In this document: positions 48,955 to 51,310 of the stretch, one piece after another
How the letters are laid out: each line of letters starts with the position of its first letter
Numbering within the stretch: the first letter of the stretch is position 1
From: Pseudomonadota bacterium
GTDB taxonomy: Bacteria > Pseudomonadota > Gammaproteobacteria > Burkholderiales > REEB80
Direction: 5' to 3'
NCBI GenBank assembly: GCA_018971485.1
Contig: JAGXAQ010000003.1
Location: forward strand, 1 to 64,000
Length of the DNA stretch: 64,000 bases
Notes under the pieces: generated by a model
Told to the model about the DNA's origin: nothing
The model's input: only the letters and a program-made list of their open reading frames with translations
The model's database searches: none
Position numbers and translations under genes: made by a program

Positions 48955-49267
48955 TGGTGCCCCGAGCCGGAGTCGAACCGGCACGACCGTTAGGTCGAGG
49001 GATTTTCTTACCCGCTACGGTTTTCACCGCCCTGAAAACAGGTTTGGAGTCTGGAGCACGCCTTGACCTTAGTCATGTGACCTTAGGCCCTCGCCGTCTG
49101 CTCTCTACACCTGTCCAAATGTTTTAAATTTGGCCTTGGCTCGGCGTTGTCTCGCCAGTTAATCTGGCAGGGAGTTCGCCGAATTTGACGAGATTCGCAC
49201 CCAGCGTTTCCGATTGGGGCGCTCAAAATTTTAAGTCCCTTGTGTCTACCTATTCCACCATCGGGGC
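48955..49267 (-). tRNA. tRNA-Leu(UAA), split by an intron in the anticodon loop
   Basis: The mature ends are canonical. The 5' exon (35 nt, 49233-49267) begins GCCCCGATGGTGGAATAGGT; its first seven bases pair with TCGGGGC near the 3' end, and the encoded terminus is ACCA at 48955-48958. The D-loop region GGTAGACACAAGGG and T-arm GCCGGTTCGACTCCGGC are standard for tRNA-Leu. After removing 226 nt, the anticodon arm reads AGGGA-CTTAAAA-TCCCT, giving anticodon UAA (reads UUA/UUG). The intron lies directly after U34. The gene is single and on the minus strand, with CCA encoded. Confidence 0.93.
49007..49232 (-). ncRNA. Putative group I self-splicing intron in tRNA-Leu(UAA)
   Basis: The insertion after U34 starts AAAATTTTGAG and ends in G (omega-G, 49007), as group I introns do. 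GAG can pair with the exon's CTT (U-G wobble at the splice site) to form P1. On the minus strand, GGTGTAGAGAGCAGACGGC (49093-49111) and CTAAGGTCAAGGCGTGCTCC resemble the P7/P3 core segments I remember from cyanobacterial tRNA-Leu introns. It has no reading frame of homing-endonuclease size. At 226 nt it is among the shorter group I introns. Self-splicing is predicted, not shown. Confidence 0.85.
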
Positions 49268-49513
49268 TTTATGCCTCAAAATTATTTGGCCTGACTCACT
49301 TAACTTTAATGGTAAAATTCGCACAGCATCATGCTAGTGTATCAACGTGGTCTTGATGCTGGGCAAATTCCTGGCCAGACTAACTTAGCTTACGTCAAAC
49401 CCGGATCAGGAATGCCGGATTGTACAATATTTCAGGTAAATATGGCGAAAGAAAATCATCTCATTAAAAAATATCTTCTCTAAATGAGAACAGATCCTTT
49501 TTGTCTTAATTAT

Positions 49514-49564: not shown

Positions 49565-51310
49565 ATGCAACCCTATAAGATGACCGCCAAATCCTGGTTA
49601 CGAAATATCAGTTCTTCTGTCACTACCCTGGTGTGGATAACAATAGTATTAGGCCTATCCAGCGGGGTGTTGCTTATTGGACAGGCCTGGCTATTAGCAT
49701 GGGTAATTAATGGCGCCATATTCAGTCATAAACCATTTGCTCTATTTGTACCCGCGTTTGAGGGCATGCTTGTAATATTGATGATTCGCGCAGGATTAGC
49801 TTGGTTTAGTGAGAAAGTGGCTTTTCGTGCTGCGTCCCAGGTTAAATTAAATGTTCGCAAGCAATTAATGGAGCAACTTTTAAAACTTGGGCCAGTACAA
49901 TTAGTAGGAGAGCACAGTGGTGAGTTGGCTAATATTCTGACTGATGGAGTAGAAGCGTTAGAGGGCTATTTCTCTCAATACCTCCCGCAGACGGCTCTTG
50001 CCGCCCTCCTACCCTTAACCATTTTAGCGATAGTTTTCCCTGTTGACTGGATGTCTGGGCTAGTGTTGTTGTTTACTGCACCTATTATTCCGTTCATGAT
50101 GATTTTTATCGGAAAAAATGCAGAATTGCTAAACCAGAAACAATGGCATCGACTAGCGCGCCTGAGTGCTCATTTTCTAGACGTAATTCAAGGAATTACA
50201 ACCCTTAAATTATTTAATGCCAGCCGTGCTGAGTCTAAGGTTATTGCCCGTATGTCCGATGAATATCGTCTAACCACCATGTCAGTACTTCGAATTGCAT
50301 TTTTGTCTTCTTTGGTGCTTGAATTTTTGGCAACGGTAAGTATTGCACTGGTTGCTGTGTTAATTGGATTCAGGCTGTTATGGGGGGATCTTCATTTTGA
50401 ATCTGGATTTCTAGTTTTGTTGCTTGCCCCAGAATTTTATTTGCCGCTACGTTCTATGGGTACGCATTATCATACCCGAATGAATGCAATTGGAGCTGCA
50501 GAGCGTATTATCGAATTGCTTGAGATGGAAAGTATGCCTATTGTTATTAATCCACATAGAATAAATAAAACTAGGGCGTTATCCATTCAACTGGAAAATG
50601 TGACTTATGCTTATGAGCCAGGACGGATTGTTCTGGATAAAGTGTCGCTTAAAATTATCCCGGGCGAACGTATGGCAATTGTTGGCCCATCCGGGGCAGG
50701 TAAAAGCACAATTTTTAACCTGCTTTTGAAGTTTATTCACCCACAAAATGGTCAAATTAAGGTAAATGGCATAAATTTGCTTGATTACGATCGGGAGGAC
50801 TGGCTGCAGCAAGTCAGTTGGGTTCCTCAGCATCCCCATATCTTTTCAGGGAGTATTATAGAAAATATTGCCGTGGGCCAGCAATCTGGTGTTGATCTGG
50901 AACAGATAAGGCATGCCGCTCACCAAGCTATGGCAGATGAATTCATTGAACATCTTCCCTCTGGCTATGATACGTATGTTGGCGATGGCGGACATGGTTT
51001 GTCAGGGGGGCAGATTCAGCGAATTGCACTAGCCCGTGCATTTTTTAAGAATGCCCCCTTGTTACTCATGGATGAACCTACAGCCAACCTGGATCTGGAA
51101 AATGAGCAGAAATTGATTCTGGCCTTTAATCGCTTAACCTGTCAGCGTACTACGCTTGTTATTGCTCACAGGCTTCATACTGTTCAACATGCCGATCGCA
51201 TTCTCGTGATAAACAGGGGGCATATTGTTGAAGTTGGTTCCCATAAGCAGCTTATCGAACAGCAAGGTATGTATTATAGTTTCGTTCAGGATTATCAGGA
51301 GGCCAGATGA
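49565..51310 (+). CDS. cydD: Cysteine/glutathione ABC exporter subunit CydD
   Basis: This is a 581-residue half-transporter: six membrane helices (to about residue 310), then an ABC domain with Walker A GPSGAGKS, signature LSGGQIQR and Walker B LLLMDEPTANLD. With CydC it exports thiols to the periplasm, which is needed to assemble cytochrome bd. The stop overlaps the cydC ATG by 4 bp. The cydABX genes face it at 53 kb. Confidence 0.95.
   Translation: MQPYKMTAKSWLRNISSSVTTLVWITIVLGLSSGVLLIGQAWLLAWVINGAIFSHKPFALFVPAFEGMLVILMIRAGLAWFSEKVAFRAASQVKLNVRKQLMEQLLKLGPVQLVGEHSGELANILTDGVEALEGYFSQYLPQTALAALLPLTILAIVFPVDWMSGLVLLFTAPIIPFMMIFIGKNAELLNQKQWHRLARLSAHFLDVIQGITTLKLFNASRAESKVIARMSDEYRLTTMSVLRIAFLSSLVLEFLATVSIALVAVLIGFRLLWGDLHFESGFLVLLLAPEFYLPLRSMGTHYHTRMNAIGAAERIIELLEMESMPIVINPHRINKTRALSIQLENVTYAYEPGRIVLDKVSLKIIPGERMAIVGPSGAGKSTIFNLLLKFIHPQNGQIKVNGINLLDYDREDWLQQVSWVPQHPHIFSGSIIENIAVGQQSGVDLEQIRHAAHQAMADEFIEHLPSGYDTYVGDGGHGLSGGQIQRIALARAFFKNAPLLLMDEPTANLDLENEQKLILAFNRLTCQRTTLVIAHRLHTVQHADRILVINRGHIVEVGSHKQLIEQQGMYYSFVQDYQEAR

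Follow-up and report, generated by a model that had tools for sequence, protein, structure and literature searches.

A group I intron of the IC3 type in the tRNA-Leu(UAA) gene of a Burkholderiales genome

The window analysed here, a stretch of 64,000 nucleotides from a genome of the order Burkholderiales, contains on its minus strand at 49267-48955 a tRNA-Leu(UAA) gene, the halves of which are split after U34 by an insert of 226 nt. It is almost certain that this is a tRNA-Leu(UAA) gene with an ORF-less self-splicing IC3 intron, which belongs to a proteobacterial lineage, has been passed on vertically since the genus arose and is patchily distributed in the order. The 5' exon (49233-49267, 35 nt) ends with C32, U33 and U34, followed by the intron (49007-49232) and by the 3' exon (48955-49006, 52 nt), which starts with A35 and A36 and encodes the CCA end. 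The 5' end of the intron is AAAAUUUUGAG and its 3' end is a G. Joined on paper, the exons are read by ARAGORN as an 87-nt tRNA-Leu(taa) with all arms and the encoded CCA, having an acceptor stem of 7 bp, anticodon and T stems of 5 bp each and a long variable arm. In its intron mode, ARAGORN places an identical 226-nt intron at 35-36, between U34 and A35 as is characteristic of the tRNA-Leu(UAA) intron family; in the default mode without introns it misses the gene. A sequence-only reading had described exactly this arrangement, a compact group I intron without an ORF in a proteobacterial genome, with the same two intron ends and an insertion directly after U34, and was correct to the base; the ends apply to the minus strand, and an 87-nt spliced tRNA and a 226-nt intron are likewise predicted by ARAGORN. 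Promoter and terminator scans around the gene gave scores no better than those of shuffled sequences. Between the tRNA gene and a divergent ABC transporter gene at 49565 lies a strong inverted repeat (49309-49377), whose match to a microRNA model is due to chance, as are the matches to tRNA-Sec, mir-3931 and other weak Rfam matches near the gene.

Among group I introns, the insert belongs to the Azoarcus/cyanobacterial tRNA type (IC3), a subgroup name that is reportedly the published one for the Azoarcus and Synechococcus introns. The Rfam model Intron_gpI (RF00028), which had been proposed as a check, aligned with the greater part of the insert and scored 27.7 bits (E 5e-5), but this is below the gathering score of 50 bits, at which no Rfam match was obtained in the window. 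The gathering score is a detection threshold and not a defining feature, and an Azoarcus-type intron from the same order reaches 49.1 bits with Intron_gpI, which is also just under the cut-off. Therefore, the low score reflects the model. Since the cut-off was missed, the fold was tested directly, and all 64 pairs of the P2-P9 fold written for the insert are standard pairs, so that the expectation of a foldable conserved structure was borne out. For covariation we used an alignment of 65 introns sharing one insertion site, in which 87.0% of the cells are paired, compared to 33.8-40.9% when the partners are slid by 1-3 columns. Double-sided changes occur in 46 of the 64 proposed pairs, and 673 cells are changed on both sides vs 212 in shuffles, with none of 500 shuffles reaching 673. 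Together with the full-length homologs described below, these changes place the intron well outside what chance would produce.

Following the intron on the minus strand, the internal guide GAG of P1 (49222-49224), as read from the sequence, pairs with CUU of the exon and forms a U34.G pair at the 5' splice site; the guide region UGAGC is invariant across the 65 relatives. The adjacent UUUU (49225-49228) is a candidate for P10 with AAAA of the 3' exon. The P2 stem-loop with a GAAA loop (49196-49221) is 89% paired, with double-sided changes in six of its seven outer pairs. P3, formed by CUCGUC (49187-49192) and GGCGAG (49090-49095), is 100% paired and four of its six pairs covary. The P4-P5 domain (49140-49183), with P4 99.3% paired, and the P6 domain (49110-49139) follow, as well as the guanosine-binding helix P7 with the strands GAGCA (49099-49103) and UGCUC (49054-49058), which is 99.7% paired and shows G-C/C-G and C-G/U-A exchanges. 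The P7/P3-like segments suspected earlier are supported by these data. The P8 stem-loop is located at 49065-49089, and the P6, P8 and 3' P3 and P7 elements were all assigned from fold and covariation. The P9 domain (49010-49050) comprises two hairpins, 96-100% paired and with a GAAA loop in the second, while its closing helix P9.0 is 28.5% paired in the 65-intron alignment, in which this helix is misaligned. The terminal G (omega-G, 49007) is evident from the sequence and the alignment of relatives. The minimum-energy fold (z = -2.3) recovers P2, P4, P5, P6a, P8 and P9; P3 and P7 are not obtained jointly, as a pseudoknot-free program cannot give both. Altogether the insert has the conserved P3-P8 core with the P4-P6 and P3-P7 helices, the U.G pair in P1 and the terminal G of group I introns, and it is homologous over its whole length to introns in the anticodon loops of bacterial tRNAs.

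A full-length homolog of the intron with 88% identity is present in a sister species of the same genus (MAG REEB109), and in both species the intron-bearing tRNA adjoins the same gene of 184 aa. Due to this conserved neighborhood, the intron is vertically inherited at least since the genus arose. Outside the genus the identity is about 76% or less, with full-length homologs of 74% and 70% in other Burkholderiales families, while two further families gave partial matches. The Lautropia MAG (L064, genome G009) is another genome of this order. An intronless tRNA-Leu(UAA) with adjacent halves was found in at least 23 of 60 relatives. Using the covariance model R1, tRNA introns of this type, whichever tRNA they reside in, were detected in only 46 of 300 genomes from the Burkholderiales; the corresponding figures were 27 of 299 for Pseudomonadota and 39 of 59 for a cyanobacterial class. 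In the genome of the window the model found a single copy with 207.8 bits, a sequence that is itself part of the model. The patchy presence in the order came about through loss and/or transfer.

The intron is a further example of a known thing, as the same intron is found in the same tRNA of many other bacteria. A pattern scan of named genomes, with a search pattern that itself fixed the 5' flank GGACUU, yielded at least 118 contigs; both exon halves are readable in at least 115 loci, including six relatives from elsewhere, and in each of these GGACUU from the 5' half immediately precedes the insert and AAAAUC from the 3' half follows it. In all, homologs inserted at this point are present in more than 100 genomes. 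Among the hosts of the matches listed are Azonexus, Rhodoferax, Cupriavidus, Achromobacter, Bordetella, Stutzerimonas, Pseudomonas, Rhodanobacter, Dyella, Ectothiorhodospira, Thiomargarita, Acidobacteriota, Clostridia/Oscillospiraceae and some cyanobacteria. Matching tRNA-Leu(UAA) introns also occur in Rhodanobacteraceae and Beggiatoa. Two gammaproteobacteria, 'Ca. Thiomargarita nelsonii' (here L106) and the orange Guaymas Beggiatoa, have been described as having a putative group I intron in tRNA-Leu-TAA (PMC4853749), and Acidovorax and Burkholderia are reported to have introns in tRNA-Ile (PMC8450103), whereas in a review cyanobacteria and a few alpha- and betaproteobacteria are the only hosts named (PMC4033280). 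The sequence-only reading went astray here in two respects: it regarded a non-cyanobacterial host as a surprise, although many Proteobacteria, Acidobacteriota and Clostridia share the intron and the Thiomargarita case was already published, and it held that tRNA introns outside cyanobacteria reside mainly in tRNA-Arg or tRNA-Ile, although Proteobacteria and other phyla frequently carry them in tRNA-Leu(UAA). Two MAGs labelled Rhizobiaceae (L149) and Chloroflexi (L071) have tRNA-Leu introns that closely match gamma- or betaproteobacterial ones, and these contigs may be mis-binned.

In a tree of 93 introns the window intron groups with that of the sister species (100/100 support), and the pair sits inside the tRNA-Leu introns of Burkholderiales and Gammaproteobacteria. 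The main cyanobacterial tRNA-Leu introns form a clade of their own (100/99). A second tree with viral copies added gave the same placement, with a bootstrap that had not settled. By these trees, the window intron belongs to a proteobacterial tRNA-Leu lineage. Relatives of the same clade share the gene, the insertion after U34, the guide GAG and the fold, but differ in the P5, P6 and P9 loops. The Thiotrichaceae/Beggiatoa introns L044 and L117 are on a different branch, which they share with Acidobacteriota and a small number of cyanobacteria. A constraint uniting all tRNA-Leu introns was strongly rejected (5e-8). In the trees, introns of Beta- and Gammaproteobacteria are interleaved, and the deeper branches are short with low support. 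This interleaving and the patchiness fit transfer, loss or both.

Somewhat favored for the history of the intron is that it was gained at the base of the genus by transfer among Proteobacteria, via cells or phages, and not by unbroken descent from the ancestor of the Burkholderiales, a history that leaves the above identification of the intron unaffected. The numerous intronless tRNA-Leu(UAA) genes of relatives, the small share of genomes of the order that have any such tRNA intron, the interleaved beta- and gammaproteobacterial introns and the occurrence of such introns on phage contigs all speak for this. However, a short, fast-evolving intron leads to weak deep branches, repeated loss from an intron-bearing ancestor gives an equal patchiness, and a donor was not identified. 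Of the two origins suggested earlier, vertical survival or transfer, the first holds within the genus by synteny, while the order presents the patchy and interleaved picture described above. That the intron, alone or with the whole tRNA gene, was recently acquired horizontally from a cyanobacterium is very improbable. Gene, insertion point, size class and fold are indeed the same as in the classic cyanobacterial tRNA-Leu(UAA) introns, but these have their separate main clade, the intron and its sister are nested among those of Burkholderiales and Gammaproteobacteria, and the neighborhood is common to the sister species. Moreover, a tree in which the window intron joins the main cyanobacterial clade is worse by 62 log-likelihood units and is rejected (p-AU 0.02). 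The earlier claim of a close relationship to the cyanobacterial intron is thus not supported.

Catalysis, guanosine dependence and splicing in vivo can be assumed by analogy with the intron family. In the transcribed intron, the guide GAG would pair with CUU, with which the 5' exon ends, a free guanosine held in P7 would attack after U34, and the released U34 would then attack after the terminal G, joining the exons to the 87-nt tRNA. A second tRNA-Leu(UAA) was not found in the 1.93-Mb draft genome, which consists of 35 contigs, so that an intronless copy could be missing from it; the other leucine anticodons present are CAA, CAG, UAG and GAG. In ten neighboring ORFs, leucine is most often encoded by UUA (165 of 584). 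As the only tRNA-Leu(UAA) found serves the commonest leucine codon of these ORFs, splicing should be essential, and judging from gene content the spliced tRNA-Leu(UAA) is probably essential to the cell. That the locus is instead a tRNA pseudogene holding a degenerate, unspliced intron, to which only the weak Rfam score would point, is extremely unlikely given that the conserved pairs and both splice-site signals are all intact and that this sole tRNA-Leu(UAA) found faces a heavy use of UUA.

Introns of this type are also present in other tRNAs of Burkholderiales, namely in tRNA-Ile(CAU), tRNA-Arg(CCU), tRNA-Ser(UGA) after U34 and tRNA-Leu(CAA) after C34. As the order combines several host tRNA genes with numerous intronless neighbors, it is a good test bed for intron movement. 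The Azoarcus-type tRNA-Ile(CAU) and the proteobacterial tRNA-Arg(CCU) IC3 introns, both of which occur in this order (L208, L213), have core motifs and fold in common with the window intron, but are inserted after the third anticodon base and have a different guide sequence. Copies also exist on viral contigs: 48 stretches of IMG/VR contigs have introns of this type, several of them in tRNA-Leu(UAA) on contigs of 113-379 kb and mostly beside other tRNA genes (L307 8756-8975, L304 9650-9868, L323 2519-2737, L328 3747-3966, L296 1305-1530, L321 12017-12418). On other viral contigs the host tRNAs are read as Ile(CAU), Gln, Ser and others, and one viral intron flank encodes an endolysin. According to a review of 2014, the phage introns then known were all in protein genes (PMC3984707). 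A search of annotated phages for the intron gave no match, and plasmid matches covered the short core only, exclusively in Mycetohabitans megaplasmids. The smaller viral contigs L312, L325 and L335 have host-like intron copies and may include host flanks. Speculatively, the IC3 introns of tRNA anticodon loops could be one mobile family that circulates in bacteria and large phages; the tRNA arrays of phages would re-seed tRNA-Leu(UAA) and enable hops to the neighboring sites in tRNA-Ser(UGA) and tRNA-Leu(CAA), and the window intron would be a settled copy; we consider this scenario possible but rather unlikely.

Regarding these neighboring sites, two Burkholderiales genomes (L194 1371-1595 in G206, L285 1501-1773 in G097) have the intron in tRNA-Ser(UGA) after U34 with the CUU/GAG guide pairing, as if the site had shifted from tRNA-Leu(UAA). 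In tRNA-Leu(CAA) (L277 1501-1730, L283 1501-1744) the intron follows C34, and therefore the 5' splice site would have a C-G pair and not the usual U.G. For L197, the ARAGORN designation tRNA-Pro(CGG) was rejected, since the loop CUCAUAA is that of tRNA-Ile(CAU), with which the tree concurs. One intron-like match (L214 1398-1596, G179:C30) has flanks that do not add up to a complete tRNA and seems to be a truncated remnant. In a member of the Pyrinomonadaceae (L226 1501-1717) the intron is located elsewhere in the anticodon loop, and the tRNA, misnamed tRNA-Arg(TCG) by ARAGORN, looks like tRNA-Lys(CUU).
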